Positions 8,335 through 49,400 of a DNA stretch of 64,000 bases are shown one piece after another. The stretch covers positions 14,854,340 through 14,918,339 of the forward strand of contig NC_087081.1 of assembly GCF_026151205.1 (NCBI RefSeq), in the 5' to 3' direction. A model generated the notes under the pieces. It was not told where the DNA came from, did no database searches, and worked only from the letters and a program-made list of their open reading frames with translations. This stretch comes from Bolinopsis microptera (lineage: Eukaryota; Ctenophora; Tentaculata; Lobata; Bolinopsidae). The stretch's first letter is position 1. Every line of letters starts with the position of its first letter. Made by a program: the position numbers and the translations under genes.

Positions 8335-8431
8335 TGTTCTGTAAATTAAGATATTCTGAAATAAATGAAACTTTATAAGTTTAAAGCTATATGTAGTAAT
8401 CATAGTTTGTAAATGAGATAGCAGGTGTTCA

Positions 8432-22423: not shown

Positions 22424-22510
22424 TCACTGCTCAATAAACCCAATGGCTTGGATTTCGTTTTCAAGCCTCTCAATTTCACTCTGAGTATCCTCGTCGAATT
22501 CTTTTATTCG
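22424..22510 (-). CDS. plcb: PLC-beta terminal exon 32
   Basis: 28 codons and a stop: [20 protein letters not shown], then QAIGFIEQ and TGA followed at once by a second TGA. The acceptor CTTTTTTCCAG sits in one copy of a 14-bp duplication (22510-22523 and 22555-22568). The C-terminus does not look like a PDZ ligand. Confidence 0.85.
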   Translation of the reverse strand, partial: RIKEFDEDTQSEIERLENEIQAIGFIEQ

Positions 22511-25500
22511 CTGGAAAAAAGAGTCATGTTACCATGGTAACTAATATACTATTAGCTGGAAAAAAGAGGACATCTGATTAGAAAATAGTTATAAAAAGCT
22601 AGAGTTGCTAGCTGACATCTGATTAGGAAATAATTCATAAACGATAAGAATCATTTAGCTACAGAGATTATTGAATCAACAACATGATAAATTGATTAAA
22701 TAACTGCTTGTTATACCGTTTTAGAATCTAGAAAATTATGATGAATCAAATAGCTGTAGGAAATAAATAATGTTTCAATCTACAATTTTAAATTGAGGTA
22801 ACTGACAATAATCAGAATTACAACCAAATATCAAAATCTAGAGGCTATCCAATATGATAACAATTGTGTTACTATGGTAACTAGTAGTGTTAACATAGTA
22901 ACATATCCAATATGATAACAATCTTTATGCTACCTGATGAAGTGAGTACCAAGAATGGAAGTAAGTGGCTTCAATAACGCGAACAGAATGATTTATTGGG
23001 GCAAAAAATTTGAGGTTAGATTTCACGAGTCTTTTTGGGCAAGAATACCCACTGGTGGGTGGAGGGGGGGGGGGGCGGGTGGGGAAGTGCTGCTTCTTTA
23101 ATCGTATTAAAATTCCCGTGAGTTTCACGAGCAAATCACTTTCAATAGTTGCAGCTCCAATTTCGGCTGCACAGTAGTGTTACCATAGTAACTGGGCTGC
23201 ACAGTTTACTCAATTACTGTTCAGAAGATTTTCCTTTTTTTAATCGGGAGAAATAGTGTGATACCTGACAATGTTAGAACAATGTCGGAACAATGTGAAA
23301 TATGGGCTGGGGTGGTAACTATAGTAGTGTTACCATAGTAACTGGGCTGGGGTGGGCAGCCTTACTTGTCGCCATGAACTCGAGAGCAACACACATACCC
23401 ACGCTTACCGCATCTAAGCTCAGTTGTGAACTTTCAAATTCACTTTCCATTACCTCAATGCGCTAGAAATGGTAAAGCAGTCCAAAAATCATTTCATTCC
23501 GGAAATTGACAGCCGAGTTCCGGAAATCGTTCAAAAATTACGCTATTTCTGATTCAAACTCCAAATTTCTGATCCAAACTTTGATCAAATCACACTTTCT
23601 TTGAACGCTCCCATCAGAAATAAGCGTTATATTTGAACGACCCCTAAAAAGCTAAATTCGATCATTTCATGAGCAACTAAAGAATAGCATTCCAAAAGAA
23701 TTTTCAGAGTACGAACTGTAACATGCGTGTTAAAGACAAAGCTGCCTATTTTAATGATTACGTATTTAATTAGTTAATTAGATAATTAGTTTATTAATCA
23801 CCTTGAGGTAGACTTGGCCCATGAGTTTCATCTGTTCCTTATGTTCGGCAACAACTTGCTCTCTTCGAATTTCTTGGTTCTTTGCCAGCTGAAGGGGATG
23901 TCATCGTAACAATCGTAAACATCTTCTTAATTAATACTTCTCCAAGTCAATATGAACATAATTTCGGACGACACTGCAGCTAGAAGGAGGGGGTGTGGGG
24001 ACTTAATTAATCTAGGAGTTAGAAGGAGCTGGGGGGGGGGGCTTAATTAATCTAGGAGTTAGAAGGAGCTGGGGGGGGGGGGGGGGGAGGCTAAACTAAT
24101 CTAGGAACTAGAAGGAGCTGGGGGGGGGGGGGACTAAATTAATCTAGGAGTTAGAAGGAGCTGGGGGGGGGGGGGGGGCTAAACTAATCTAGGAACTAGA
24201 AGGAGCTGGGGGGGGGGGGGGACTAAATTAATCTAGGAGTTAGAAGGAGCTGGGGGGGGGGGGGGGGGAGGCTAAACTAATCTAGGAACTAGAAGGAGCT
24301 GGGGGGGGGGGGGGACTAAATTAATCTAGGAGTTAGAAGGAGCTGGGGGGGGGGGGGGCTAAACTAATCTAGGAACTAGAAGGAGCTGGGGGGGGGGGGA
24401 CTAAATTAATCTAGGAGTTAGAAGGAGCTGGGGGGGGGGGGGGGGGGGGCTAAACTAATCTAGGAACTAGAAGGAGCGGGGGGGGGGGACTAAATTAATC
24501 TAGGAGTTAGAAGGAGCTGGGGGGGGGGGGGGGGGGGGCTAAACTAATCTAGGAACTAGAAGGAGCTGGGGGGGGGGGGGACTAAATTAATCTAGGAGTT
24601 AGAAGGAGCTGGGGGGGGGGGGGGCTAAACTAATCTAGGAACTAGAAGGAGCTGGGGGGGGGGGGACTAAATTAATCAAGGAGTTAGAAGGAGCTGGGGG
24701 GGGGGGGGGGGGGAGGCTAAACTAATCTAGGAACTAGAAGGAGCTGGGGGGGGGGGGGGACTAAATTTATCTAGGAGTTAGAAGGAGCTGGGGAGGGGGG
24801 GGGGGCTAAATTAATCTAGGAGTTAGAAGGAGCTGGGGGGGAGGCTAAACTAATCTAGGAACTAGAAGGAGTTGGGGGGGCTAAATTAATCTAGGAGTTA
24901 GAAGGAGCTGGGGGGGGGGGGAGGCTAAACTAATCTAGGAACTAGAAGGAGCTGGGGGGGGGGACTAAATTTATCTAGGAGTTAGAAGGAGCTGGGGAGG
25001 GGGGGGGGGGGCTAAGCTAATCTAGGAACTAGAAGGAGCTGGGGGGGGGGGCTAAATTAATCTAGGAGTTAGAAGGAGCTGGGGGGGGGGGGAGGCTAAA
25101 CTAATCTAGGAACTAGAAGGAGCTGGGGGGGGGGGGGACTAAATTAATCTAGGAGTTAGAAGGAGCTGGGGGGGGGGGGGGCTAAATTAATCTAGGAGTT
25201 AGAAGGAGCTGGGGGGGGGGGGGAGGCTAAACTAATCTAGGAACTAGAAGGAGTTGGGGGGGGGCTAAATTAATCTAGGAGTTAGAAGGAGCTGGGGGGG
25301 GGGGGGGGAGGCTAAACTAATCTAGGAACTAGAAGGAGCTGGGGGGGGGGACTAAATTTATCTAGGAGTTAGAAGGAGCTGGGGAGGGGGGGGGGGGGGC
25401 TAAACTAATCTAGGAACTAGAAGGAGCTGGGGGGGGGGGGGGGGGACTAAATTAATCTAGGAGTTAGAAGGAGCTGCGGGGGGGGGGGGGGGCTAAATTA

Positions 25501-28464
25501 ATCTAGGAGTTAGAAGGAGCTGGGGGGGAGGCTAAACTAATCTAGGAACTAGAAGGAGTTGGGGGGGGGGGGGCTAAATTAATCTAGGAGTTAGAAGGAG
25601 CTGGGGGGGGGGGGGCTAAACTAATCTAGGAACTAGAAGGAGCTGGGGGGGGGGACTAAATTTATCTAGGAGTTAGAAGGAGCTGGGGAGGGGGGGGGGC
25701 TAAACTAATCTAGGAACTAGAAGGAGCTGGGGGGGGGGGGGACTAAATTAATCTAGGAGTTAGAAGGAGCTGCGGGGGGGGGGGGGGGCTAAATTAATCT
25801 AGGAGTTAGAAGGAGCTGGGGGGGGAGGCTAAACTAATCTAGGAACTAGAAGGAGTTGGGGGGGGGGGCTAAATTAATCTAGGAGTTAGAAGGAGCTGGG
25901 GGGGGGGGGGGGGCTAAATTAATCTAGGAGTTAGAAGGAGCTGGGGGGGGGGGCTAAATTAATCTAGGAGTTAGAAGGAGCTGGGGGGGGGGGAGGCTAA
26001 ACTAATCTAGGAACTAGAAGGAGTTGGGGGGGGGGGGGCTAAATTAATCTAGGAGTTAGAAGGAGCTGGGGGGGGGGGGGAATAAATTAACCTAGGAACT
26101 AGAAGGAGCTGGTTGGGCTTAACGCAGCTAAATTGAAATTACTTTGTTAGATTGATTGTTGATTTCTCTTTCACAGCGTTCGTCCAACTGTCTCTTCTTC
26201 TCCGCTAATTCGTCCTTATCTTTTACTTCAGCTATCAGTTTCGCTAGCTGGTCCGCTTTTTTACCTTCTATTACTTTCATCTGAAATGAAATTAAATTAT
26301 ATTATGCCCATACAATATTGAAAAAAGAAAGATATCAATCAAACCGCTCTTATCTATTCCTAAATGTTTACACAATTCTATCGTTGAAAACATTTACCCT
26401 CCGAACTAGTTAAAGGAAAAAACAAATCTTTTTATTTTAACTAAATACGATCTATATGTCTATATTATATCTCTCTATCTCTAATTTCTATATCTACATC
26501 TACCCTATCTATATATCTCTCTTTCCAATGTTTTCTGATTATGTTACTGAAGATAGTAATGAAAATGTTTTAACACCTCAGTACTGTGTATTACTACAGC
26601 TCTTGAACCTAACCTGCTCAGTCTGACTAATTGGGAATTTAAACTCTATATTATATCTCTCTATCTATATTATAACTCTCTATCTATATTATATCTCTCT
26701 ATCTATATTATATTTATCTATCTATATTATATCTCTCTATCTATATTATATTTATCTATCTATATTATATCTCTCTATCTATATCATATCTCTCTATCTA
26801 TATTATATCTCTCTATCTATATTATGTCTCTCTATCTTTATTATATCTCTCTATCTATATATCTACATCTACCCTATCTATGTATCTCTTTTTCCAATAT
26901 TTTCTGATTATGTTACTGAAGATAGTAATGAAAATGTTTTAACACCTCAGTACTGTGTATTCAGTATTACTACAGCTCAACCTGCTCAGTCTGACTAATT
27001 GGGAATTTAAACTCTTGATTATATCTCTCTATCTATATTATATCTCTCTATCTATATTATATCTCTCTATCTATATTATATCTCTCTATCTATATTATAT
27101 CTCTCAAGAGTTTAAATTCCCAATTAGTCAGACTGAGCAGGTTGAGCTGTAGTAATACACAGTACTGAGGTGTTAATACATTTTCATTACTATATTCAGT
27201 AACATCCTGAATCAGAAACTCGGTTAATATCAGTTCCTACAAAGTGTATATAGTAACATTGGAAATGAAATGACACAACTAAAAACGATATGAATATTTA
27301 AAAAAAAAATAACTCTTGTGCCCCAATGCAATAGAAAACCTTCAAGATAAATCCAATTATGGAATCCCAAACGGGTCCATGGCATTGAGCCCCAATGGAC
27401 GTATAGTTCTTAGTTTCTGAATATAACGTGGTGTTCATCCACTTCTAGAGTTCTTGGGCTACTATTACTGAGAATTGACACTTTATAAGCCTGGTTGAAA
27501 TTGTCACGTTGTTTCATATTATGAACTTCTACAAGGTGTTTGCCCAAGCTGAATCCGTCGTCGTTTTCTTCAGGGACAAACGTATTGTCCGAAATGAGTT
27601 TGTAGTAATGGGCGGTATGTTCGTTTACTCGTGCCCTGAGGGGCTGGACCGTTCTTCCTACATAACACATATTACAAAGTTGGCAACTGAAGAGGTATAC
27701 AACATTGTAGCTGACACATGTACCAGACACTGCTTTGGCTCGCTGTCCATTGGCTGTTATTGATGGATGTGGAGATATGATGTTACAGGTACTGCAGTGT
27801 CTGCCCCCACATGGTCTTGTGTGAGGTTAGGTTAAGTCATCCGCAAACTGTTTTGCTTTGACTAACTTCCTTCTAAAAGATGTTCCAGTACGTCTGACGA
27901 ATTTGAAGATAGGGCGTGATGTACCGGCTCTAGATGATATTGGGGAGCCTAGGGTGTTTCCACTTGTATGGGAACCAGATAATCCTGAGAAGCTCCTGGT
28001 TCTACTGAGTTCTGGTTACAATCGTTGTACCGATTCTACTAACTCTTGATCGCTGCCAAATGTCTATCTATATTATATCTCTCTATCTATATTATATCTC
28101 TCTGTCTATATTATGTCTCTCTATCTATATTATATCTCTATCTATATTATATCTCTCTATCTATATTATGTCACAATGACTGAAGAATAAACCGATACAA
28201 GATCACTCGGATAGACGAATGGTTATATTTATTATTCATAGATGAAATAAAACAAAACAAACTGAATAGTTTGGTAGTAAGTAGAAAAAACAAGGAAGCA
28301 CTCTAGGATAAGATAAATGGAAAAGATGATCCATGTTCAGAACTTACCCCCGATTTTCTCTGATAAAGTTTAAACTGGTTAAAACTTAATATTCAATAAG
28401 AGTTAACAATATCATATTATGTGAATATCACCCGAGTAGAGTATCATATATATTCAATAACTTT

Positions 28465-28498
<34 letters not shown>

Positions 28499-31400
28499 GG
28501 GGGGGGGTCCCCCTTAATCATAATAAATAATTGTATATTACCCGAGTAGAGTATCATCTATATTCAATAACTTTCCATTAAGGGGGCCGGGGGGGGGGGG
28601 GTCCCCCTTGATTATAATAAATAATTGTATATTACCTGGTCGGCCAGCTCGTTCCTCTGGTAAAGCTCGAATCCTGCAAACTGGGCTTCGTGTGCTTCCT
28701 TCTTAATCTTCTTGTACATCTCGTGGTTCTCCTTCATTTCCTTCCTGTCGTGAGTAAACTTCTCGCTCTTATGGATCTTCTCCACTCGGAAAGCTTCGCT
28801 CTTATGTTGCAGTGTCAAGTTGTTAACCTGTTATTACACATGTTACTATGGTTACCAGCAAGTTGTTAGCCTGACCAGTGACAAGGTGGGTTATTACACA
28901 TGTGATCAACTATCTGGTAACCATGGTAACGGTCTCTACTCAGGTGGTTATTAATTTGCTGGTTCTTGTCTTATTAATATATATATTATTAGATTAAAGA
29001 AAACCTTAAGAAATTATATAAAAGTAATGACTATTAGAATAAGTATAAGATTATATAACGCGATAATATTATCGTACTTCTTTAGCTTGCTTCTCGTCAT
29101 GCTTCTTGATAAAGGCATCGAACTGTTCTTTGGTATCACTGAAGTGCATCTCAGTTAGAAGAGGTAATGGAATATTTATACAGCTGATAGCTTGAAAATC
29201 ATGCTCAATATCGGTCAATTTGCATTTACGGATCAGGAAGTTGTGATTGATTTGAATTGAGTTTACAGATCCTTATTACACGAAATAATTAAGTTATCAA
29301 TTCATCAACCAACATAAATCAGACAGGAAGAAAAGGGACTGTCAATTGCAATATTGAATCAGCAGAATGTGCTGGTAACCATGGTTACCAGCAGAATGTG
29401 TTTTAAAATCAGATCTTGTTTGAATGATAACTTATTTCGTGTAACAAGGTGATATTAATCGAATATCACAGACAAAGTCACTACATGCAACACATGCACA
29501 AATTACGCTATTCCTCTGTCCCTTAGTATATAATGCAGTTTAAAGATATTTCCTTGTGTTTGATTACTCGTCCTACTCAGGGTATAGCTCCAAGCAATGA
29601 CGTGCTGTGTCGTGCTGTATCAATCTCGATATTTCACGGGCTTCAAAAATACGAGGCTTCCAATTAATCTTACAGCTAACAGAGAGACTACAAGAAGTAG
29701 TGAGTAGTCGTAAACACTACTAATAAAGTAGTAGTAATTAACAAATTAGGTTATTCAGGAGCTGCAAGCAGCAAAGTTATTACAATGCACTGTTGCATTG
29801 TTGCCTGGCAACAGTTTCTCATCAACTGGTGTCTAGAACAATGATAGTCTGTAAGGAGTAAAAGCTACACCATAGGATATTGAGATGAGGTGCTTAAAAT
29901 GGTGTTTGTAAAACTAACTTAACATTTATTAATTAATTATAACATGAAGATTTGTTCCGCATCGGTAATTCTGCTCTTTACATACGAATAACTTACTCAA
30001 ATTTTAAACAACTTTTAACGTCGCGGCAAGTGCATCGGTCAAGTAATCTACAACAGTACTTGTCAAATGATCTATAATCATATTTACTTACCTATTTAGT
30101 CAATTGTAAGTTAGAGTTACACGTGATGCCCATATAAGGAGTTATTATCCTGTACTCATTAAAACTGTCGTTAGTATTACCTGATTAACCCGCTGTACCC
30201 CTAGTACCTAGTACTTAGTACTTAGTACTTAGATCTAAGTACTTAGTACTTACTACTAAGTACTTAGTACTTAGTACTTAGAACTTAGTACTAAGTACTC
30301 AGTACTTAGTACTTAGAACTAAGTACTTAGCACTAAGTACTTAGAACTTAGTACTTACTACTAAGTACTACTAAGTACTACTAAGTACTAAGTACCTAGA
30401 ACTTAGTACTTAGTACTAAGTACTTAGTACTTAGTACTTAGTACTTACTACTAAGTTCTTAGTACTTAGTACTTAGTTCCTAGTAACAAGTACTTAGTAC
30501 CTAGTAACTAGTACTTAGTACTTAGTACTAAGTGCTTAGTACTTAGTAGTAAGTACTTAGTACATAGTAGTAAGTACTCAGTACTTAGTACTTAATACTT
30601 AGTACCTAATGCTAAGTACTTAGTACTTAGTACTAAGTAACAACGTACACGCAACAACGTACACGCAACAACGTGCACGCAACAACGTACACGCAACAAC
30701 GTGCACGCAACAACGTGCACGCAACAACGTACACGCAGCAACGTGCACGCAGTAACGTGCACGCAGTAACGTGCACGCTTGAGTGACGTGACCTTACACT
30801 GAGCCTACCTGTCCATGTACAAATGTTTAGTTTTCCCCCTCAAACGCCGACAACACATCACACCTTGATTGTCGTCAGTATTGTGTCCGTCATTATCATG
30901 TCCGTCATTATTGTGTCCGTCCGTACTGTCTCCGTCATTATTGTGTTCGTCATTATTGTGTCCGTCCGTACTGTCTCCGTCATTATTGTGTTCGTCATTA
31001 TTGTGTCCGTCCGTACTGTGTCCGTCCGTATTGTGTCCGTGAGGAGTCGAATTAACAGTGACCGGTAGTTTGTTTAGTTCTGCATGTTTGTTAGTCGAGG
31101 TATCGGAGGACTTACAGCGATAATCTTTCCGTTTTCTACTGTAAAGCAAAGTATTATGTATACTATATCTCTACATTATATACAATAGTTCAGTATAGTA
31201 TAGTATAGTATAGTATAGTATAGTATAGTACAGTACAGTACAGTACAGTACAGTACAGTACAGTACAGTACAGTACAGTACAGTACATTATAGTACATTA
31301 TAGTATAGTATAGTATAGTATAGTATAGTATAGTATAGTATAGTATAGTATAGTATAGTATAGTATAGTATCGTATAGTATAGTATAGTATAGTATAGTA

Positions 31401-34400
31401 TAGTATAGTATAGTATAGTATAGTATAGTATAGTATAGTATAGTATAGTATAGTATAGTATAGTATAGTATAGTATAGTATAGTATAGTATAGTATAGTA
31501 TAGTATAGTATAGTATAGTATAGTATAGTATAGTATAGTATAGTATAGTAGCTTAGGACTTTACTAGATAAACGTGTATGGAGGCCATCAGGCCAGGGCT
31601 GACAATGAAATACATATATTGCATGCAAAAATAGCATGAATCGGTAAACATTATGATAAAATACGCTCAATATACATCTAACATAACATAGTTACTAGTT
31701 ACTAATTACTTGTTACTAGTTACTAGTTACTAGTTACTAGTTACTAGTTACTTAGTTACTAGTTACTAGTTACTAGTTACATTTTAGCTACGATTACAGG
31801 CTCATTAGTGCAGCGCTATCATTCTGCTAAAATCAAAATGTGATTTTTATGATTGTGTGGAGCAAATTAGAAATTAAATAATTAATTAATTAATTAAATA
31901 ATCGGATAATTAGGAAAATTTCACAGCATGCAAGAAAATCAAGAATCACAGAATACATAAAAAGACATGCCACAAGTAAATACAAGTAACTACATGTAAC
32001 ACTGTAATTCACCCTTATTAAAAAACCTCGTTAAAAGACAAAGTTGCTTTGTCAGCAAATAACATGCACCCTAATCATATGATACCATCAGTTACCATGG
32101 TAACACCATAATACCATCAGTAAACACACACAAATATTGCAGCGAAAGACATTTTAATCAACAGTGATTGTAGCCCAGTAACTACTGCATGAAACAAAAT
32201 GAAATGTGATTTGTCATTTGATTTGTCATTTGATTTGTCATTTGATCTGCCATTTGAATTGTCATTTGACTTGGTACGTGATTTGTCATTTGATTTATAA
32301 TAAAGTTCGTCATTGAATTTGTCATTGAATTTGTCATTGAATTTGTCATTGAATTTGTCATTGAATTTGTCATTTAATTTGTCATTTAAATTGTCATTTA
32401 AATTGTCATTTAATTTTTCAGTAAATTTGTCATGTGATTTGTCACGTATGTAATCACGTGATTTCATGATTTGTAATGTGATATGTTCCAGGCAGTAGTA
32501 ACGGGTGATAACAGAGATTACGAGCATTAAGCATGATTACCTTGTTACCATGGTAACAAGGTGTTATTAAGCATTATAATATCCCTACTCTTTGCAGTTA
32601 AAGTCAAGCCCTTTACTGAGCGCCGGATCTGTTACGGAAACACAAAATGCTTTACGTCCGAACCTAGACCAATAACATGATTAATTAAATAATTAGGGTA
32701 ATTAGTTAATAGGGCCGGGCCTATTAGTTGATTACAAATAACTTAAAATTTCATCAGCTCATTGTAATCAGGGCTCTAGTCGTTGTTGCAATTTGTGGCA
32801 GCGTTCAGTTAATACTTTGACAAATCGTCAGAGAGTCAGAGGGTCAGTCGTGTGTAATAAAGTAATAACATGTTTACCATGGTTACTGTATAAAATGTAG
32901 ATTCAGCTTTTTTATTCTACTATTCTACAATGTTTCGATGTAAACATTCAATTATTATTCCTCATAGTCATAAGCTATATAAGCTATGTAAGGGATTATT
33001 GGATAAGGGCCAAGTTTTATTGATCAGCCATTCAAGCGGGATATGCTACCCTTCAGAGCTTACGGGGCGTTCATTCTTTTCATAATTAGTCATAATTACC
33101 TAATTATAAACCCATTAGGTGACTTAATGTACATTTGCAGCATTTCCCACGCTTCATATCACATGAACATACCAAATCACACACACTTTCTTTTTCATCG
33201 CACATCACAAGAGATTACAGTAGCCCAGGACATCCTTTCCAAAATAATCACCAGTTTTTTAGCCAATTTTGAAAATAAAGCTTATCTAAACAATTGGAGG
33301 CCTCCACTCCTTTACAAAATCTGTTATCTTATTTGGCAAGTAGCTGTGTCGCGTAAAAAATGGGAAGATAATACGGGCAATTCCTTAGTCCTCACCCTAC
33401 TAAATGTAGCTAGGAATGCTTTGACGCGAGATTTTATTGAACCTTAAATAAACATGCAATTGTGCGATTTTAGTGCCAAAAATTTGTGCTGAAGGCTGAT
33501 ATTCTAATGGACCATGGTTACTGGTGAAACGGCATTAAAATAGGGATGTCCTGGGCTATGGTCGAAAAACATGAACAAAGAGTCCCAGATTATATACATT
33601 CTCAATATATACATATGCGACTATAGCATACAATGTTTCTGCGTCTGAAGAACTCTTCCCTCGCTTTCTGGAAAACAAACTGTAAACTTGTTAGTCAGAG
33701 TGTTTAACACAATGATAACACCATGGTAACACCAAGGTAACACCATGATAACACCATGATAACACAATGGTAACACCAAGGTAACACCATGATAACACCA
33801 TGATAACACAATGGTAACACCATGGTAACATCAAGGTAACACCATGACCATGATAACACCATGGTAACACCATGGTAACACCATGATAACACCATGATAA
33901 CACCATGGTAACACCATGATAACACCATGGTAACACCATGGTAGCACCGTGATAACACCATGGTAACACCGTGGTAACACCATGGTAACACCATGGTAAC
34001 ACCGTGATAACACCGTGATAACACCATGGTAACACCATGCCATGGTAACACCATGCCATGGTAACACCATGCCATGGTAACACCATGCCGTGGTAACACC
34101 ATGCCATGGTAACACCATGCCATGGTAACACCATGCCATGATAACACCATGCCATGATAACACCATGGTAACACCATGATAACACCATGGTAACACCATG
34201 TTAACACCATGGTAACACCGTGATAACACCATGGTAACACCATGGTAACACCATGGTAACACCATGGTAACACCGTGATAACACCATGGTAACACCGTGA
34301 TAACACCATGGTAACACCATAGTAACACCATAGTAACACCATAGTAACTACATGGCAACGAGTAAATTAGTCAACCTGTTATTCGGGGAGGTTAACTGTC

Positions 34401-37400
34401 AAAATTTAGGTAATTGCAATTAATTAATTATAACATGGTGATTGGCTGACTACTAACTAAATCTAGCAAACACTCCGCAGTAGTTTCACCAGAATAGTCC
34501 GTGTAAAGTACAATACACTGTGTAAAGTGTAAAGTGACTACTTACCGCACATTACCACACATTTCCCTATATTATAAGCCTATAGTTCACTTACAATACA
34601 TTGTCTGTAGTCGGGTTATTTTTATTGTTCGTCAAAAACGTTTTATAAAATTCAACTTCATAAATATGATTACTGACTTCTCGTAATTAACCGACTGAAA
34701 TTCAGGAAAATTAGATATTAAAAAAAGCTCACCCAGGTTTCCGAGCCTTCTCTTGTGCTTTTATCTGGTTTGCTCGCAGTACCTGGTTCTCTTTTAGCAA
34801 TTTATCCATTTGACCTTTTTGCGATTTTTGCAGCATTTGCTTTTCCTGAAAGTAAATTATCTCGGTTAGTTAAAGATATTTCAACTCAGTCATGTGGTTG
34901 TAAAACTTCTAATTTTTACAAAAATTTGCTGAAACGAAATAGGAATATTCAGGAATACTCAGGGATATTCAGTAATATTTAGAAATATTCAGTATTATTC
35001 AGTAATATTCAGTAATATTCAGGAACATTCAGGAACATTCAGTAATATTCAGGAACATTCTGGAATATTCATAAAATAAAATGAGAATCAGCATACCTTC
35101 TCTTGGTTCTTCTGAATATCTTGATTCTTTTTATCTTGCTTTGAATAATACTTTAGCCACGCCTGACACAAGATGTTTATAAATAAATAGCATAACAACA
35201 CAATTTAATGTCATTGTATTGGATTTATAAAGCGTTATATTGTCATATCCTTTGTTTAAGAAGTTGAATTGTAATGACTATTTCCAAACCTTTCCTTTTT
35301 TGATGCTTTCCTCGGTGATTTCATTCCAGTCAACACCCTGGATCTCTGTATAATGTTTAAATTAGACAAATTGGGTAAAATATGACAAATTCAAAATATA
35401 TTATATATGCGGTAAATGAACAGTGAAACCGATTATTTAACATAATATGACAAGATGTGTAAAATACTGTGATAAACTGTGACACGTGATCTATAAATTG
35501 TGTGTCTTTGTGTAGTAGACTAGTAGTGTCCTAGTGAAAGGAGTTCTTACCTCTGAGTCTAACCCTAACCCAAACCACTACTAGACTATTTACTATGACA
35601 ACCACACCCCAACCCTACATCTTTTTAACCCAACACTAATCTAAACACTTCGGACCAGGGTGTTATAATCTGAGAGGTAAAAACCTTTTACCCCTAATAA
35701 GTGCCTTATATAACAGTATAACTAGTATATTAGGAGTAAAATATGTTTCTGTGAATATTTAAATAAAATCAACAGATTACAGTGCAAAAAAAATCAGACA
35801 TTCTGACTTTAGAGAAGGAAGAGAGAGAGAGAGAGGCGTTACGATGGTTACCATGACTGTAGAGACGCGCTCACGACGATCTACCACGAATATCAAGAGA
35901 AACAAAAGATATTAACCAAGATACAGGCAAAGTAACCAAGTAACAAGAGTAGTAGCACTGCTAGTTATAGTTAGTTTATACTAACTACACTACAGTACTA
36001 CACTACTTTACACTACTACAGTACTACAGTACTACTATTAGTGTAGAGCTGGGCGAGCAATAATTATTGTTTCAAGGGACCTTGAATCTCTTGAGTTTTT
36101 CAAATGCGAAATCGAAGGTGTCTACTGTCTAGGTCATTCTGAATTGTCTTCAATTTTGGTTATTCTGTCAATTACATGTTAAACATACATATGCAGTTAA
36201 TTAAAACAAGCTAAAAGAGAGAAAATACAATTGTAACCATGGCAACTAGAGAAAATACAATTGTACAACCTCAGAAGTAAGAATGATTTAATTTAAAAGC
36301 TCAAAAAAGCCAGCACTAATTTTGAACAAGCTAGATAGGTAACCAGTCACGTGGTATGACGTCTTGTCACGTGATATTACGTCTTGTCACGTGGTATGAC
36401 GTCATGTCACGTGGTATGACTGGTTGCTAGGGAACCAGCTGAGAGCACAGACCTATAGTGACGGACTTGTCCTGGATGTGGCGCGGAACTGGATTATTAG
36501 TTACACGATTGATGCGGTGGTTGCAATTGTTGTTAGTGTGACAGAAACAACGCTTGCCTCTTCGACAGTTCACCTGAGTGTGTCAGGAGATCAGTGCCTA
36601 GTTACCATGGTAACACCTGGCCTGGGAGACAGAAAGTGGAACTGATACTCAAAAGCGAAACTAATTGCGAACCGAAAAGCGAAACTAATTGCGAACTGAA
36701 AAGCGAAACAATAAAACTAAAAGCAAGCCCCCTAGTTATCTTATTATCAGCGAACAAGCATACGGTGTATTTAACGGCGAACTCAACAAAAAAGCAAATG
36801 AAGTGAAACAGTAAAAGTGAGAAAAAGCTGAAGTCTCAAACATTAGAAAGTGATTTTACATCGGTGAAAAGAGATGATAATGCCTTAAAAATGACACTGA
36901 TGTAGTGAAGTGATGATATTACATTGAAATTAACAAAACCCCTTACTGGGCAGCATTCTCTCGTCATCAGCGGGCACATCGTCGACAGGCAGGTCCCAGG
37001 GTAACACAGGAGCAGTACTCTTAGGTTTCCCTGCTTTGTCGTCCGTAACAAGCTTTGCACTGTCGTCTCCCACATACAAACCACCCACAAACTCTTCCTT
37101 AGGCTTAGGGTTCTTGTCTGGCACGGCGCCAGCTTTAGGCTGCACGTTAGTGAACGTTTCCAGCCCGGTGATGACAATAGCTGCCTGTTTGGGGGGAGCT
37201 GGTGCACTGGCAACTGGAGCAGCGTTAGGATTGTCACGACCCTGGGGGCACGACGGGTAAACCAGCGAACAAGCGAGAGAAGTGACATTATGTGAGAGAA
37301 GTAGGTAGTAACCATGGTAACTGTACAGGTGATGCTGCCTGGTAACCATGGTTAGTAGGTACCAAGGGTTAACAAGCACAATATTCAAATGTTAAGCCAA

Positions 37401-40400
37401 AGAGTTGAAGTTTTAGTGATCAGCGGGAAATCTAAATACTCTAGAAGCAGAGTGCAGTTACATATTACTGCACCCTGCAGAGTGTAGCTACACCCTGCAG
37501 AGTGCAGCTATACCCTGCATAGTGCAGCTACACCCTGCAGAGTGCAGCTACACCCTGCAGAGTGCAGTTACACCCTGCGGAGTGCAGTTACACCCTGCAG
37601 AGTGCATCTACACGCTGCAGAGTGCAGTTACACCCTGCAGAGTGCAGTTACACCCTGCAGAGTGCAGCTATACCCTGCAGAGTGCAGTTACACCCTGCAG
37701 AGTGCAGTTACACCCTGCAGAGTGTAGTTACACCCTGCAGAGTGCAGTTACACCCTGCAGAGTGCAGTTACACCCTGCAGAGTGTAGATACACCCTGCAG
37801 AGTGTAGATACACCCTGCATAGTGCAGCTACACTCTGCAGAGTGCAGTTACAGCCTGCAGAGTGCATCTACACGCTGCAGAGTGCAGTTACACCCTGCAG
37901 AGCGCAGCTACACCCTGCAGAGTGCAGCTATACCCTGCAGAGTGCAGTTACACCCTGCAGAGTGTAGATACACCCTTCTACTCCAGTAAAATACAGGTGA
38001 GCAGGAAGCTCTTACCCTGACTCTTCTGTTTCTCCTGTTGTTAGTGGTCTGAGCGGATGCTGGTTTAGCCGCGTCTAAAGCTTTCGCTTCTGCTGCTGCA
38101 ACAGCTTCAGGGTCTATCAGATCCTCCTGGTCCACTAGTGTAGTCAGCATGTCCTCTCTGCGCTTCATCAAATCATCCTGAAGAAATAGGTTTAAATACC
38201 TTGGTAACACATGCCTAGTTACCATGGTAACACATACCTTGCAATTAGTCAACCAGTCGGTAAAAAAAGTCTAGTTTATAGCTAGCTAAAAGTAATTTAA
38301 AAAGAAGAAACTTAAACTAAACCTAGAATTAGAACTAGAATTAGAACTATAAGCTAAAACGAGAATCTAGAATAAGAAACTAGAATCTAGAATTAGAAAC
38401 TAAACCTAGAGTCTAGAATTAGAAACTAAAACTAGAATCTAGAATTAGAAACTAAAAATAGAATCTAGAAACTAGAACCTAGAACTAGACACTAGAAACT
38501 AGAACCTAGAACTAGACATTAGAAACTAGAACCTAGAAAGTTAACTCTTACCTTTGACAAATGAGCGATAGGGTCGACGAGAGCGTTAGCAAAGTCAGCC
38601 ATCTCGGAGGGAATGTAGTCTTTAACGTCTATCTTAACGAACAGAGAGGCCATTCCTGGTGGGTGGGAGCTATTAATCTCACTGATTAAAAAGTGTATTG
38701 CTTTGTTGAAATGGGTCTCCATGGTTATCTCTCTTAGTAACCCTCACTACCAACCAATATTAGGTACAGTTAGGAATCATTCATTATAAAGTGATTACAC
38801 AGATCCTGTAGTCCTAATCAAAGTGATTGGAAATTACACATGAACTAAACGTGAAATGAGAAAGTGAGTTCTACAATAGTGACCCTGAAAGTTAACTGGC
38901 TAATCAGACAAATGAAAAGCTTCAGTAGTCAGCAGTTATTTTGAGGGTAGCCCTGTACTTCAATCAAATCAGATTGATTGCTCTAACTAAGAAATCCTGA
39001 CAAAGAAAGCTGTCCCTCCGCAAGCACCCCTCCAAATCCCGTTTAATATTGACAAAATGGGTGGTGAATAAAACATGGCGCTGGGTTTAGACGAAAATAG
39101 CTGTGTTTTAATCAACGTTTTCAAAATGCCCATATATAGAAGGGATAGAAAGGCCATTTTGGTTTTCAATCAACGTTTTCAAAATGCCCATATATAGGAG
39201 GGATAGAACGGCCATTTTGGTTTTCAATCAACGTTCTCGAAATGCCCATATATAGGAGGGATAGAATGGTAATTTTGGTTTTAGTCGACGAATGTAAATT
39301 AGTAAATTAACTGTAAACATACCGATAGGAATATTGAAATCATTCCTCAAGCTGATGAACCGGTAACCACTCTGGATACTCTCCATAGGGATAATCCTCT
39401 GTCCGATCATCTTTCCAGCGTCGTCATTAACAATAAATCTCATCATCGCCAAATCAGGGATCACAATCTGAGAGTAATACCGTCGTTATCAACTGCTTGG
39501 AAAAATTGGCAGCTATATTTGCCAAGCCGTTTGAAGACTTATCGTCTTTCCTTAAAACTTAAATAGCACTAAGCACTATTACCGTTTAATTCCAGGTAAA
39601 ACTGTAGAGTATACATTACATAACCTTTAGTAACCATGGTAACACATTACCTTCGAGAAGACGAATGGATCCTCGTTGTCCCAGCGGGGGCAGATACTGT
39701 TGTTAATAGTTTTAGTAACCAAGTAACCAGTTCTAGTTACTATAGTAACCAGTTCTAGTAACCTAGTGACCAGTTCTAGTTACTGTAGAAACCAGTTACA
39801 GTAACCTAATTACCTTTGCGAAGACGAAGGGGTCCTCGTTGTCCCAGCGGGGGCAGATACTGTTGTTAATAGTTTTAGTCTGATGTTTCCTCCTCACAGA
39901 GTCATTAGCAATTCCGTACATCTCCAGCTCCACCTTCACTCCGCACTTCTTATCGCTCAGAAACTGTCCTGTAGATTCAATTCTATCACTCACCCCATTT
40001 ACCACAAACCCTGATTTACTGCGACTGTATTCTCTCCCAAACCCCGATTTACCGCGACTGTTATCTCTCCCCGGGATTTTAATGTAATATGATCGTGCGA
40101 CTAACATATTATGTAAGACTGAAAAAATGGTCGGCAAGTGTTTCGTCCGTCAAGGTGTCGTTGTTATACAATGTGTTGTTTTAAATGACAGTGTTATGTC
40201 ATTATTTAACTAAACCATACCAGATAAGACGTGGTAACCATGGTAACTACATACCAGATAAGACGTGAACTTTGAGCTCCGCTGCGACCACACCCTCTAC
40301 TGACATTTCCAAGAAGGGGTTGAAGGTCGTCTGAGTTTTAGTCATGAAGTCGGGTTTTAGGAGGTACCCCGTCTTATTGTTAAACTCAAACTTTCCTGTG

Positions 40401-43400
40401 AAATAAAGCTTAGTTAGCTTACAGTTAGGTTACAGTATTGTTATTACAATAGGAAGATTAGTTGCAGATGTTCGTTTGGGGACTGGTTTATTTGCCAGTC
40501 AATGTTTGTTTACGAATATAATAACTTTATTACATAATTATAAATGTATATTTTAATGAATGTGTTCCTTGTCTACACAAATTAAGGGAAAGTACCAATA
40601 TTAAGCTGCATGGGCATGTCGAGTGTTTGGAAGTTGAGTGCCACCATCTGACATCCAGTGTTCCAGAACATCTGGGGCTGGTAGTTATCTGAGGCTACTC
40701 TGGCACCTGGGAATATGGCAGGTTATTAGGTAGTTAGTTTAGTTAATACTTTAATAATATACTTTAATAACTGAGAATAAGTTTTCTAATAAATGGATAT
40801 AATAACAAGAAATGCGGCCGCTTTTCTTTTGTGGATGGCCGCTCAATTTCCCGATCCGTGATGGCGTATTTATCATATTCCATACAACCTGGGGACGGCC
40901 CAGTCTTTATTATTTATATAAACATGCAAATATGGCGAAGTGACATGCCGACTGCCGAGCGCCGCCCAGTTAATATAATTCTATTTTGAATTTGAAAATC
41001 GTATATATTTCTATGTAACCATATGTTTATTGTTTATGCAGCCTGACACGGATCTGTGCAAGATATATATATAAATAGTACTACTATACTAACTCAAAAT
41101 AATAATAATATGCTATCAATTAGTGCCTAGTGGGATACGTACATGATGAAATTAATAATGTACTTGGTTGGTTCAGCGTCGCGCGCCAACAATTATATAA
41201 TTCAGATTATCACATAAAATAACTTTGCGCAGGTAGTCACGTGGGCGATAACAGTGCGCGAGGGCACGTATGTACGCTCGCACGCACGCTCGCACGGTCG
41301 CAAGCTACCATATACAAAAAAAACCTCGTTCACTAACCCTTGTCTTTGACTCTTTTGTGCCTTCGGCACTTTGAGTCATGGATCGGGAAAAAATAACTTG
41401 TATTATTGGTATAACCTTTAGGGTAGATCCTGCTGACTTCTCTCTTGTTGTAATTAACGTTATTAGTTAGTTAGTTTAGTTAAAATAACTTGTATTATTG
41501 GTATAACCTTTAGGGTAGATCCTGCTGACTTCTCTCTTGTTGTAATTAACGTTATTAGTTAGTTAGTTTAGTTAAAATAACTTGTATTATTGGTATAACC
41601 TTTAGGGTAGATCCTGCTGACTTGTCTCTTGTTGTAATTGACGTTATTAGTTAGTTAGTTTAGTTAAAATAACTTGTATTATTGGTATAACCTTTAGGGT
41701 AGATCCTGCTGACTTGTCTCTTGTTGTAATTAACGTTATTAGTTAGTTAGTTTAGTTAAAATAACTTGTATTATTGGTATAACCTTTAGGGTAGATCCTG
41801 CTGACTTGTCTCTTGTTGTAATTAACGTTATTAGTTAGTTAGTTTAGTTAAAATAACTTGTATTATTGGTATAACCTTTAGGGTAGATCCTGCTGAGTGC
41901 TGACTTGTCTCTTGTTGTAATTAACGTTATTAGTTAGTTAGTTTAGTTAAAATAACTTGTATTATTGGTATAACCTTTAGGGTAGATCCTGCTGACTTGT
42001 CTTTTGTTGTAATTGACGAACTCCACTGGGTTCTCCTTCAAGTGGTTCAGAGCTGCTGTTTCCACAAACGAGGACATCTCATAACTCACATTCTTCTTAG
42101 CTGCCTGGTCAAACCCTGAAATTTAATATTTATTAGTTACTAGTTACTAGTTACTAGTTACTAGTTACAAGTTACTAGTTACTAGTTACAAGTTACTAGT
42201 TACAAGTTACAAGTTACAAGTTACTAGTTACTAGTTACTAGTTAATAGTTATTAGTTACTAGTTACTAGTTACTGGTTACTAGTTACTGGTTACTAGTTA
42301 CTAGTAACAATTAAAACAGTATAATTAAGTAACAATTAAAACAGTATAATAATAATATGAATATAATAATATAAGTTGTAACCTCTGAATTTGGGGGCCG
42401 GCATGATGTAGTTAACAAGTTTCGAGAGAGAAGTTTCAGCTTCCTCCTCGCGATCTTCCCAAGACTGCAGGTAATTATATTGTTACATAATTATGTAATT
42501 ATATTGTTACATAATTGCATAATTTAGCATTAATTCCGAGATAAACTAGCTAATTAATGGAGAGTAGGTATACAGATTACTGGATATAACAGCGGCTGAA
42601 GGAGTATTTACAAACTGCTAGTAAAGTAGTAAAGTAGTGAAGTAGTAAGTAAATGTAACAAGATAACACTTGAAACTGATATGAAGACACCCAATTTGAA
42701 CTGCAGCCCAAAAATAGGCCCTATTTCCGCATATAAAGGTGGTAATTTCCGGCTATTTTTGCATAAAAGTGGTGGTAATTTCCGGCTATTTCCGCAATTT
42801 CGGGCAATTTCCGCATTAGAGGGTGCATTCATATCAGAAATAAAAGATAAAATTAATAATAGTTTAGAGTTTTTAAGACTAGTTTACCGAGTGTAATAGC
42901 CTCATTCCAATTATACACAGCAAGGTTATATCTAAAATCAGACAAGACCGTGCAACAGAACAGGTAGATTATTGTAGTAAAGTGATTAAGGGGGCCGGGG
43001 GGCAAGACAGGTAGAGTATTGTAGTAAAGTGATTAAGGGGGCCGGGGGGGGGGGGGGGAGGTAGAGTATTGTAGTAAAGTGATTAAGGGGGCCGGGGGAG
43101 GGGGGGGGGGGCCCCTTAAGACTAAACTACAATAATATCTAGCTGGTAGATAGATAATAAGACCCTCATGCCACATAACATAACATAATTAGTATGTTTT
43201 TATCACTGATTATTAGTAGATAGTTAGTTTAATTAGATTGTGTCCTCATGCCAGCGTTGTGATTGTCGTTTTTATCATACTGTGTATACTATGTATCAAA
43301 GTGACTCTCATTATTTAGTATTGACAAAATGATTAAAAAACTATATTTATTCACTTCGAATAAAATCCCACGATAAAAAGTCCCCGTTTTCATAATGCAA

Positions 43401-46400
43401 CCACATCTAAATATGATTATGCATGAATTATGCATTAATCTACAAAACAATTATAAGATAATTATGCACTAATCTATAAACTAATTATGCAATAATCAAA
43501 CACTAACTATTCGTTAATTATACACTAATTGTACATTAATTATACACTAATTATGCGTTAATTATACATTAATTGTACATTAATTATACACTAATTATAC
43601 AATAATTATGCACTAACCATACATTAATTATACACTAATTATACATTAATTATGCACTAACCATACATTAATTATACACTAATTATATACTAATTATACA
43701 TTAATTATACATTAATTATACACTAATTATACAATAATTATACATTAATTATACACTAATTATACAATAATTATGCACTAACCATACATTAATTATACAC
43801 TAATTATACAGTAATTATACACTAATTATAAACTAATTATACACTAATTATACACTAATTATACACTAATTATACATTAATTATACAATAATTATGCACT
43901 AACCATACATTAATTATACACTAATTATATACTAATTATACATTAATTATACACTAATCATACATTAATTATACACTAATTATACAATAATTATACATTA
44001 ATTATACACTAATTATACATTAATTATACACTAATTATACATTAATGATACACTAATTATACACTAATCAGCTGTAAGATCCACAGAATTATAGTACCAC
44101 AACACTTCACCACAACAAGATTGTAGTACTACAATGTAGTACTGAGGGGAGAGACGCTCTTTATGGTGCTATGTAGATAGATCTTGCTACTTTCTTATTA
44201 GATGCTTCTCCCCGAAACGTCTCTCCCCAAGTAATTTAGATTGTAACACTAAGTTCAATAATTAATTAATTAATTACAATAATTAATTAATTAATTATGA
44301 TTATTGTGATATTATATGAGACACATGACAGAATGATCGCATGCACGATTATTGACGGGTTGACTCACAGTCGGGGCTTTGGAGGCCGCATCGGTCTAAA
44401 CATGGATATGTGAAAATACTGCATCAGTAACCATGGTTACAACAGTTAAATACTGCATAATCACCGAATAATTACTTCAAATGATTAAGCAATGGTTATT
44501 AAATAAATATCCCAAGGATATTATTTGATGTACCTAGTATTGGAAGGCACACTACGGTGATATTCCAACATTTAAAAGGCAGTAAAACTCACTGCTGAAA
44601 ATTATACACCTGGTCCAAATAAAAATATAATTTTAACTACGCAGATTGCTTGCGGAGGTTTAGACGCTTGTTTTTTACAAAGGAGTAAATAACCTACCCC
44701 TTTGTTGTTTTCTTCGTCTTCTCCTTCTTTGGGAGGCTCAACACCGTCTAGATAAATACCTGAAGAGAGAAAAAGAGTGTCACTTTATACGTATATAGTT
44801 TCACTTTTAACACAAAGAGTTTCACTTTTAACACAAAGAGTTTCACTTTTAACACAAAGAGTTTCACTTTTAACACATAATAGCGGTTCACTTTCAACAC
44901 ATAGAGTTTCTCTTTACCATCACGACATGCTCCATTGTGAAACAACAGCTGACAATTAGTGTAATCAGGATAAGATCACCTCAATAAAAAAGATGAATGT
45001 TGATAAAGTGATAAAGTGATTATTCATTTTCATTAAGAACATTCAGTATTCAATATTCAATCATTTACATATCACATGTAAAATAGTTTTAATTTCTTTA
45101 CATCAAAAATTCACATGAACAAAAGAAGCATTTATATGTTTACAGTAAAAATGGCAATTTGACCAGAAAACAGTGTCAATTTAGCGAGACTTTGAACAGT
45201 AAAAAGGGTAAATTTAGCGAGATTTCAAACAATAAAGTGTCTGTTATGCGAAACTTTGAACAGAAACTAGTGTCAATTTAGCGAGACTTTGAACAGTAAA
45301 AAGGGTAAATTTAGCGAGATTTTAAACAATGAAGTGTCTGTTATACGAAACTTTGAACAGAAACTAGTGTCAATTTAGCGGAACTTTTAACAGTGAACAG
45401 TGTCAATTTAGCGACACTTCGAAAAATAAACAGTGTCAATCTAGCGACACTTTGAACAATAAACAGTATCAATTTAGCGACACTTTGAACAGTGAACAGT
45501 GTGAATTTGGCGTCACTTTATAACCACATGCACCATGCTACATGTGTAAATGACAGAACAGAAGAATACCTCAGTAACCATGGTAACAACAGTTAAAAAG
45601 ACGGCTCCCAACTTACTTTTATCTCCTTGGGGAGTGACTGGGAGAAGAGATTAATTAATCCTGTTTAATAGATCACTATATTATATATATATAATATATA
45701 TATAATATAGTTGTATATATACCACTCTTTATATTCATATCATAACTAGTCACGTGATAATATCACATTGTTATCACGTTACGTGACGTCACAGAGCCCT
45801 CACGTGACGTCACACACTCCCTCAGCTCACGTGACGTTACACACTCCCTCACGTGACGTTACACACTCCCTCACGTGACGTCACACACGCCCTCACGTGA
45901 TGTCACACACTCCCTCACGTGACGTTACACACGCCCTCACGTGACGTTACACACGCCCTTACGTGACGTCACACACGCCCTCACGTGACGTCACACACTC
46001 CCTCACGTTACGTTACACACGCCCTCACGTGACGTCACACAGCCCTCACGTGACGTCACACACTCCCTCACGTGACGTTACAAACGCCCTCACGTGACGT
46101 CACACAGCCCTCACGTGACGTCACACAGCCCTCACGTGACGTCACACAGCCCTCACGTGACGTCACACACTCCCTCACATGACGTCACACACTCCCTCAC
46201 GTGACGTCACACACTCCTTCAAGTGATGTCATCTTAAACCATAACTAACCTGTCCCAGAAAGAGCTGGTGCGACTTCCTCCTCTTTCTTCACGACGATTT
46301 CCTCATCTTTCTCCATCTGATCGGGCATATCTTCTTTCCTCTTCTTGTTCTTCACCAGGATCTTATACTTCAACATCTCGGGGGAGGGCAACATGCAGCC

Positions 46401-49400
46401 CGGTTTTAGCTGAAGAAATACAGATAACTGGCAGGGCAATCAGTCAACATTTTAGGAGGGAAATCTAGAGCCAATATCGCCACTACAATTAATTTGTCAC
46501 CAGCGTTACAAAGCGTTACAAGCGTTACAAAGCGTTACAATACTACATTATATCTTTAGATTTGTTTGGAGAGGCGAATCATACGGAGTTTACTACATTA
46601 TGCTACAAACCTGAGCTTTTGGGTCATCAAGAGGCTCCCTAAGGAGTTACACACTCTCTCACGTGACGTCACACACTCTTTCACGTGACGTCACACACTC
46701 TTTCACGTGACGTCACACACTCTCTCACGTGACGTCACACACTCTCTCACGTGACGTCACACACTCTCTCACGTGACGTCACACACTCTCTCACGTGACG
46801 TCACACACTACATACCTGAGCTTTTGGGTCATCAAGAGGCTCCCTAAGGAGTTTATCTCCGAAAATGTCCATGCAGTATTTAGCCATCTTCTGCTGCTGT
46901 CGCGGCGTACAATGGTTCTCAAATGAGAGGATGAGAGGGTAGGGCGATGTTTTGAATGCTGTTTCGTTGATAGCAAGGATTACATCCTGAAAATGGGAAA
47001 CTCAGTTGAGAAACGCAATTTTATCATAACACAATTTATCAGCTTGGGATCAGCTTACTGTACTACAGCTGCTCTACATAACACTTTATGTGGTATGTAT
47101 TGTCGCCTAGAAAACGTTTTTCACAGTAACAGTCAAACCTCAATTTATCGTACCAAGAGGCTAGGTTAATGATAGATAGGCTGTATGTGTATAACAATAT
47201 AACTGTACTAGAAAACCCGTGGTCACAGGGAGGAACCTAATAGTATTGTTTGGAAGTCAGTTTTAATCGTGTCAAAAAGTATTCATCCCCACCGAAGATA
47301 CAGCCAAATAAAATGTTGATCGTACTAAACACGGCGTAATATCAACAAAACTGATCAAAATGACGTTAAAACAATCATTGCACGTGCGTGTAACAATCCT
47401 CGTTACTATGGTGACTACGCAACTTCCTATTTATCGGCTGATTTGCACGTGGGCGGTCGTACAGTGTACAAAAACAATTCTTTGAATTATAGTAGAGACT
47501 AGAAAGCCCGTGGTCACAGGGAGGAAACTAATAGTATTCTTTGGTAGACAGTTTTTATCGCATCAAAAAATATTCATCCCAACCGAAGATACAGCCGATT
47601 AAAATGTAGCTCGCACTGAACACAACGTAATTCGACAAAACCGATCAAAATGCCGGTCGCAAATCTTTGCACGTGCACGTGAGCTTTTGAACACCGTTAC
47701 CATGGTTACTACGCAAGTTTATATTTTTCGTCTGATTTGCACGTGGGCGGTCGTACAGTGTACATACAGAATAATTCTTTGAATTATAGTAGAGATAAGC
47801 TAACAGCTAAAATATGCCACCAATAAACTTACTTTGAATTGAATAGAAGAACAGAGCGTAAAACCGTGGGTAATTTGAGGCTCATTATCTTCGCCGTCCC
47901 AACAATCCAACTCAATACATCTGCAGCCTGAGTTATAGACGTGTAATAAAGCTAGAAGTCAAGCATCAAGTATCAATGAACTTATCAAAAAGTATTAATT
48001 AACCTAAAGTTACCTGAAACTACTAGTTACCATGGTTACACTACTAGTTACCTGATAAGAGAACTTGTCTGTAAATCTCTACACTAGATTTCCCAGAGAA
48101 CTGGTCACCAGTAAGGTAGGTGTTATGAGAACTGTTGATGAAGTAGTGAGAGATAGGCTGGTCCATGCTCTGGTAGACAGGGAGGTTTAGAATGTTGGTG
48201 GGGAGGTTGTCTGGAGACATGAGGAAGTTTGTGAACCCCTCCAGAGTCAGCTGCCCTATCTTCTGCTTGGATTTGTCTCCCTCGTACATGTGGATCAGTC
48301 TCTTTGTTCCATCCTTGTTGTGGTGAGGGAATAAGATTTCGTTTAATCGCGGATCTCGCTGGAACTTGTTGAGGAAGTCCACGATCTGATCGACACTGAT
48401 GTAGTTCCGTCTGTTTCCCGCCTTGATCTCGTCAAATACTTTGGCCACTTCTGGCCTGTCTCCTAGCATTTCTTTGTAGAATTTGTAGAAATTCTCGAAC
48501 GTAAACTTATCTTTGCTGAGCTGATCATTTTTTCTATCAGTTGGTTTAAGACCAGCTGTTTTTAGCGCTTCTACAACTTTCTTTTTCTCGTCTTTTGCTG
48601 TGACCTTGATAATTCTGAAATAATAATTATATTATAATAATAGTACAAAAACTGAAAACATTAAAAAACACAAACATTTTGTTTAGTTACGAGCAATACT
48701 GTGCCGATGAATATGACGCGTAGTTTACAATAATAACACTTACTCTTTCATTGAAACGTTTTTATCGTCTTTACTTGACAACAATATCCGCTTGTGCCTG
48801 AAAATTGAACGAGTAACTTTTGAACGAGTCCTGAACATAGCAGAAATTAAAAATTAACAGTCTAAACATTTAAGGTCATGAGTTGGAACATAGTAACACA
48901 ACTTACATTTTTCGTACGAAGTCCATTTGAGATAGATTGATATTCAAGAAATGGTGACATATCGAGAATAGATCGGCAGCGAATGCCTGAAATAAAGTTG
49001 CTATGGTAATGATGGAAATTGACGCCCAATTAATTTTTCGGGGTTTGCATAAATATTTTGGTATTATTAAAATTGTGATAAGTGCAAAGTGATAAGTACA
49101 AAGAGTTGGTTTACTTTAGCAAACTTAATTTACTTAATAATTAACTTTTCGTTAGTAAATTCGAGTTGACTAGTTCAATTAACTGATCCAGGTAGAGCGC
49201 ATGCGCGCGGTAAACATTGCGCGTTATCATGCGCGGAATTGACTACACTTGAGTCACAATGTTTGCACCGCGCCTTACAGTAAGTTGGCTACTAAAAATA
49301 GCATTCATCAACTAACTTCACCACTTTTAGCGCGTTCAGCGTGACTGCCAGTTAACTTATCATTAAATACGTGGGATACTCTTTAAATTTCACAAATTCT

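Follow-up and report, generated by a model that had tools for sequence, protein, structure and literature searches.

In a 64-kb stretch of the genome of the ctenophore Bolinopsis microptera (C10:14854340-14918339, hereafter the window), a short palindrome lies repeatedly between direct duplications of the local sequence, and we found this association of the palindrome with flanking duplications to be real and apparently recent. The genome assembly comprises 264.65 Mb in 232 contigs, with contigs C1-C13, of 15 to 26 Mb apiece, accounting for 258.07 Mb (97.5%); loci with L numbers are stretches of the same genome outside the window. The interval that holds the palindromes and duplications is the interior of a phospholipase C beta (PLC-beta) gene located on the minus strand (22427..49629).

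A sequence-only reading of the window had listed twelve pairs of repeats, each enclosing a palindrome. All twelve were present, eleven of them as exact copies and the pair at 28816 with the single mismatch already reported for it. Between the copies, the exact core TACCATGGTA was found in only 3 of the 12 (22510, 32082 and 32526); the other pairs enclose its close relatives GTTACTATGGTAAC and GTTACCATAGTAAC, a second palindrome, GTAACCATGGTTAC, or mixed arms. The pair at 48019/48040 also exists, but it amounts to 1.6 copies of a 21-bp unit and is better described by the duplication of TCAGGTAACT, copies of which lie at 48008-48017 and 48046-48055 on the minus strand.

Numbered along the window, the twelve sites differ in the length of both the duplication and the insert. 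At s1 (22510..22568), a 14-bp duplication surrounds a 31-bp insert with GTTACCATGGTAAC; the duplicated bases form, on the minus strand, the 3' splice site (CTCTTTTTTCCAG followed by C) in front of the last coding exon and include one exon base. The 19-bp duplication of s2 (22846..22922) encloses a 39-bp insert with two cores separated by the 7-bp TAGTAGT, which gives a 21-bp period. Duplications of 11 and 13 bp flank inserts of 19 and 27 bp at s3 (23165..23205) and s4 (23303..23355), respectively, and a 27-bp stretch of s3 (23173-23199) is identical to one of s4 (23323-23349). The 15-bp duplication of s5 (28816..28873), with its one mismatch, spans the 3' splice site and the first 12 nt of a PLC-beta exon. 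Inserts with GTAACCATGGTTAC are found at s6 (29360..29400; 12-bp duplication, 17-bp insert) and s11 (44414..44458; 11-bp duplication, 23-bp insert). The duplication itself supplies 2 core bases at s7 (32082..32121; 11-bp duplication, 18-bp insert) and 3 at s9 (36218..36265; 18-bp duplication, 12-bp insert), and a 9-bp duplication at s8 (32526..32574) surrounds a 31-bp insert holding CCTTGTTACCATGGTAACAAGG. At s10 (40216..40267), the 18-bp duplication takes in the final 13 nt of a coding exon that precedes the C2-domain region, together with GTATG of its 5' splice site, and the insert is 16 bp. At s12 (48008..48055), copies of an exon end and its 5' splice site (TCAG followed by GTAACT, minus strand) stand on either side of a 28-bp insert drawn from the 21-bp unit.

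Flanking repeats were scored as the longest exact repeat common to both flanks of the core. Among 27 window sites with at most 2 mismatches to the core and more than 60 bp from any array called by Tandem Repeats Finder (TRF), 14 had a flanking repeat of at least 9 bp, compared with 194 of 4000 random window positions (Fisher P = 7e-12), and 7 had one of at least 12 bp, compared with 51 of 4000 (Fisher P = 6e-8). Flanking duplication was far above its level at random positions. The same was not seen for other palindromes, given that repeats of at least 9 bp were present at only 4 of 67 other perfect 10-bp palindromes in the window (P = 0.41), which is no enrichment. One confounder was a dispersed repeat in which TTGCACGTG stands on either side of an internal X-box-like core (47402, 47696, L034, L109, L110 and L115). 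After removal of 47402, 47696 and a second count of s2, repeats of at least 9 bp remained at 11 of 24 window sites (P = 6e-9) and repeats of at least 12 bp at 6 of 24 (P = 7e-7).

The association extends beyond the window. Two sets of sites were taken from C1 and the start of C2, one from 27 loci found by TTACCATGGTAA and the other from 57 loci found by two other core forms; the 57 were hand-picked for few close neighbours, and no locus of either set was selected by its flanking repeats. With 14 and 13 sites removed before scoring because they lay inside arrays, flanking repeats of at least 9 bp were present at 5 of 20 and 14 of 44 sites, or at 4 of 19 and 11 of 40 (pooled, 15 of 59) without loci holding the word of the dispersed repeat. 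The corresponding control counts were 184 of 4000 random genome positions and, within L025-L051 but at a distance from the core, 59 of 1620 positions. Against these two controls the pooled count gave P values of 8e-8 and 1e-8, and the smaller set alone (4 of 19) gave 0.01 and 0.005. The cleaned counts are smaller, yet they lead to the same conclusion. In the converse direction, a scan of the window for exact repeat pairs of at least 10 bp, 5-45 bp apart and outside arrays, yielded 46 pairs; of the 16 with at least 12 bp, 7 enclose, as judged by eye, the palindrome or a near relative. Twenty regions of 10 kb from C1-C12 contained 67 such pairs, none of them by eye around the palindrome, and a single TTACCATGGTAA in 200 kb. 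The window is a hot region for this word, with 7 copies in 64 kb versus 1069 in the genome.

The core is very abundant. Compared with the 1069 genome-wide copies of TTACCATGGTAA, its reversed control has 22; GTTACTATGGTAAC has 617+761 copies (reversed control, 2+0) and GTAACCATGGTAAC has 1991+1827 (reversed control, 0+2). All 20 window sites of the form GTNNCCATGGNNAC outside two arrays read GT[A/T]ACCATGG[T/C][A/T]AC. This core fits the X-box of RFX factors (GTNRCC...RGYAAC), with the variable third base of the core falling on the free base of that consensus. By their match to this degenerate palindromic consensus, the 20 window sites are putative RFX-binding sites. Inserts of more than one unit (s2, s4, L036 and L048) hold a 21-bp spacing, with multiple cores 7 bp apart (s2, L036 and L048), and the units of arrays at C1:433 kb, C1:574 kb and C2:483 kb likewise repeat every 21 bp. 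On C1, 84 of the 86 listed places of GTTACTATGGTAAC lie within the first 2.64 Mb of 26.2 Mb, with none near the opposite end. The dispersed repeat with TTGCACGTG flanking an internal core (47402, 47696, L019, L034, L109, L110 and L115) is a possible source of the palindrome. Our literature searches did not find the exact 14-mer described, and they returned no description joining RFX, X-box and minisatellite and none joining ctenophore, RFX and X-box. The ctenophore chromatin-loop motif was rejected as a candidate, being GC-rich with two CpG, unlike the palindrome, as far as its description in PMC12221973 goes.

To characterize the structures, we hand-picked 28 events, some of which lie in loci dropped as arrays from the enrichment test. 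The duplications are 9-39 bp in length and the inserts 12-57 bp, with varying content. The copies differ by 8 mismatches in 417 duplicated bp, and the duplications therefore look recent. In 6 of the 28 events, 2-5 core bases are supplied by the duplicated target, a microhomology-like pattern for which no null was computed. The variable length of the duplications, the variable inserts and the occasional microhomology speak for break repair or template switching over a transposase. We favour, at about even odds, the reading that these structures are what they look like, nascent minisatellites, and that a short piece of palindromic repeat enters, with duplication of the target, through break repair or template switching. 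Under such a scheme, repair of a break or stalled fork would be the trigger, and what is copied into the new place would be 12-57 bp of a repeat that carries the palindrome (core GTNACCATGGTNAC), in some cases as one, two or three of the 21-bp units (GTTACYATRGTAAC plus ACTACTA). The DNA adjoining the break would be copied twice, leaving target-palindrome-target with duplications usually of 9-23 bp. Slippage or unequal exchange would then enlarge some of these structures into arrays with the local target as spacer, a step that would explain why one core is common to arrays of many periods. We infer that the palindrome piece is the incoming part and that break repair is the route; the palindrome may be favoured through a protein that binds it, such as an RFX factor, or through mere abundance. 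The data would fit a hairpin and protein recognition of the sequence alike. The sequence-only reading had offered two possibilities, a very small inserted unit whose target duplications vary in length or a hairpin that gives rise to duplications, with arrays as the amplified forms; the enrichment of the duplications and the arrays described below partly support this proposal, in which movement of the palindrome is hypothetical.

Several of the duplications involve exon ends. The 21 exons of the PLC-beta gene were placed by eye, with several edges approximate and at least one exon not settled; Pfam identified EF-hand-like and PI-PLC-X domains in the exon at 48 kb and, with three exons near 40 kb joined, a C2 domain. 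A splice site lies within the duplicated segment at 4 of the 12 sites (s1, s5, s10 and s12), compared with 0.36-0.41 expected (P = 0.0002-0.0006, 20,000 placements). Addition of two arrays with exon-end flanks, described below, gave 6 of 14 compared with 0.60-0.67 expected, a count attained in none of 20,000 placements, and all six spanned edges are canonical GT or AG. This test, which excluded the weaker 8-bp cases at 37308 and 38218 (neither of which spans an edge), was devised after the data had been seen. Of 23 core positions inside the gene, 4 lie no more than 60 bp from an exon edge, which is not significantly nearer than expected by chance (P = 0.26). In the genome at large, a 5' splice-site word was found 12 bp or less from the core in 34 matches, versus 13 for a scrambled word of similar frequency (47 and 45 in 200 kb), or in 15 places versus 10 after merging of arrays and near-identical copies, so that the word is not clearly enriched. 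Given that the test was post hoc, that the cores are not nearer to edges and that the genome-wide word test is not strongly supportive, we treat the exon-edge preference as a lead. Several of the splice-word matches, on other chromosomes than C1, also lie less than 1 Mb from an end.

The exon ends do reveal the direction of copying. The duplicated piece holds exon bases together with the splice site at s5, s10, s12, the two arrays, L099 and L130, and copying at these places therefore ran from exon to intron. At L099 and L130, the end of an open frame is duplicated with its splice-site word. The duplication at L065 stops at GAG followed by GTGAG after an open frame that by eye resembles a sushi domain, but for which Pfam gave no match, and that at L062 is no more than a few bases away from where a laminin-EGF coding stretch (Pfam, 1e-8) ends. 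At s1, s5, s10 and s12, the extra copy sits inside an existing intron; the insert does not itself become an intron, as that of an introner does.

The two arrays with exon-end flanks are a 22-bp array at 46603..46853, whose unit contains GTGACGTCAC, a palindrome resembling a cAMP response element (CRE) and not an X-box, and a region of GGTTACT/AGTAAC repeats of about 92 bp at 39646..39879. Both have copies of an exon end and its 5' splice site as flanks, which are 46 bp long and 97.8% identical for the former and 71 bp long and 94% identical for the latter. An array related to that at 46603-46853 is present in the next intron (45781-46231). Two other arrays had been regarded as amplified forms of the palindrome. 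The 32-bp array at 21062..21472 (12.8 copies), whose unit carries the core as GTTACCATAGTAAC, supports this view; the unit of the 11-bp TAACACCATGG array at 33705..34359 (61 copies) has CCATGGTAACA and so part of the core, but not the full 14 bp.

Growth into arrays found support outside the window, where the units at L117, L121 and L131/L132 join the palindrome to an open-frame end with its 5' splice site. The unit of L117 (C9:604.7 kb) is 84 bp, is present in 9 copies, and combines GTGAGT and the core with the end of an open frame whose previous stop lies 44 codons away. At L121 (C5:538.9 kb), an open-frame end closing with CAAACAGAGACCTGCCCGACAG followed by GT is repeated in a 32/53-bp array with GTTACCATGGTTAC. 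L132/L131 are a paralogous pair (C13:15754 kb and C13:15843 kb) with 98% agreement in the roughly 190 bp that lead up to the duplication; the place at C13:15754 kb is target-core-target (1.5 units), and that at C13:15843 kb has a full second unit and, by eye, decayed further units, followed by N. Tandem units of target plus palindrome, as in a minisatellite, are thus present at L117, L121 and L131. Among TRF arrays in the fetched DNA, 32 of 265 carry the core with differing spacers and periods that include 9, 20, 21, 22, 24, 27, 32, 53 and 84 bp, a proportion that is not a genome rate because the fetched DNA is motif-enriched and some loci overlap; the core was carried by 1 of 126 arrays in the 20 random regions and by 2 of 74 in the window. 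The notion that large arrays generally are insertions with duplications was rejected, with only 2 of 32 window arrays having flanking repeats longer than 8 bp. A 30-bp array of 28 copies at L118 (C11:5204.8 kb) has a unit that joins AGGTGAGGAGGGGG and GTAACCATGGTAAC.

A number of observations weigh against copying-in by break repair. The core is whole within the insert, or has only 1 base in common with the flank, in 22 of the 28 events, so that microhomology is found in a minority. Many sites, about half of those in the window and about 70% of those elsewhere, have no flanking repeat. In the window scan, 9 of the 16 repeat pairs of at least 12 bp have no core between the copies, and the process, if any, is therefore not confined to the core. 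No empty site was found in genome searches with the joined flanks of 6 of the 12 sites, which gave matches only inside the window with a search that skips common words, and the core is likewise present in the near-identical copies of L130 and L122; either order of events may therefore hold. At L123, L127 and L128, a core lies beside a 5' splice-site word after an open frame with no clear exon duplication, and a further core comes after the intronic copy at 39646-39716; both observations fit a palindrome that was present first. The L131/L132 pair cannot separate growth from shrinkage.

The alternative that survives best is, in our view, a lesser but real possibility: the palindromes came first, as dispersed X-boxes or parts of older repeats, and promoted local duplication of their neighbours, with nothing inserted. 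Cores with no duplication at comparable positions (L123, L127 and L128) speak for it, as do the lack of a flanking repeat at about half of the window sites and the internal core of the dispersed repeat with TTGCACGTG (47402, 47696, L019, L034, L109 and L110). Simple tandem duplication of target and palindrome, however, leaves two palindromes and not target-palindrome-target, and the 27-bp identity of s3 and s4, together with the 21-bp repeat inserts at unrelated places, resembles copying in. Rather doubtful is a further reading in which the X-box palindrome itself would be the smallest unit of a nuclear system: a bound protein would bring it to breaks, above all where exons and introns of active genes meet, and its copying-in would duplicate the junction and keep making minisatellites from exon ends.

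We consider it unlikely that the palindrome is an ultra-short DNA transposon resembling a miniature inverted-repeat transposable element (MITE), with a transposase recognizing the palindrome arms. The inserts, by eye, often start near GTTAC and finish near GTAAC, in the manner of terminal inverted repeats, and the copy number of the core is very high, but insert length and content vary. A transposon with a fixed duplication is disfavoured by duplications that vary not only among the 28 events but up to 46 and 71 bp around the two arrays. Very unlikely, too, is that the sites are remnants of ordinary minisatellites shrunk to 1.x copies, in which the palindrome is common only through the abundance of arrays. 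The window is indeed very array-rich, and 48019/48040 and L035 are partial copies of units that form arrays elsewhere; the duplicated pieces of the twelve sites are nevertheless by eye mostly unrelated, with exon sequence in s5, s10 and s12, and the flanks of six sites matched no other place. Chance or assembly error has next to no probability. Repeats of at least 9 bp do occur at 4.6-4.9% of random positions, which speaks for chance, but all three site sets are enriched (P from 7e-12 to 2e-3 before cleaning and from 6e-9 to 1e-2 after), counts that refute chance, and the loci lie on several chromosomes.

Other features of the window include a 2.1-kb array (23989-26112) between two PLC-beta exons, with a 43-bp unit containing a run of about 12 G. 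Long open frames at 52924-55803 and 27413-27826, both on the minus strand, appear by eye to be parts of a Penelope-like retroelement, and Pfam gave no match for them. An open frame of 836 amino acids on the minus strand (5944-8451) has matches to NERD (nuclease-related) and NPHP3_N.

The starts of minisatellites are usually guessed from old arrays, whereas here one short core goes with many apparently young duplications. Exon-derived duplications give a known direction of copying, and one locus has 1.5 units where its near-identical copy has several. A model of repeat birth thus becomes testable by comparison of ctenophore species and individuals. If true, it would describe how introns can lengthen at their splice sites, and it would prompt one to ask whether the spread of X-boxes affects gene regulation in an animal that bears cilia.

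In one model of minisatellite birth, arrays arise by slippage between short non-adjacent direct repeats. The structures described here are alike in offering a target-spacer-target substrate and in having array units of target plus spacer; they are unlike in that the spacers of many different arrays have one particular palindrome as their core. Introners and intron gain by break repair leave short direct repeats and splice sites at insertion points, whereas here existing introns are lengthened at their edges and no new intron was seen. Among the papers that our literature searches listed, we took none to describe palindrome-seeded duplications. Repetitive or double hairpin elements of mitochondrial DNA are, in the part of PMC2800124 that concerns them, very short dispersed palindromes suspected to be mobile; the palindrome here, which is likened to them by description and not by sequence, is nuclear and has flanking duplications. 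Also comparable are the interstitial telomeric repeats of mammals, for which portions of PMC2246262 describe short tandem-repeat pieces at internal sites of double-strand breaks, some with target duplication (4.6% of rodent and 16% of primate loci) and often with 1-8 nt of microhomology, as established by comparison with empty sites. The structures in Bolinopsis, known from filled sites alone, differ from them in having a palindromic, non-telomeric core and in that duplications are frequent rather than a minority.

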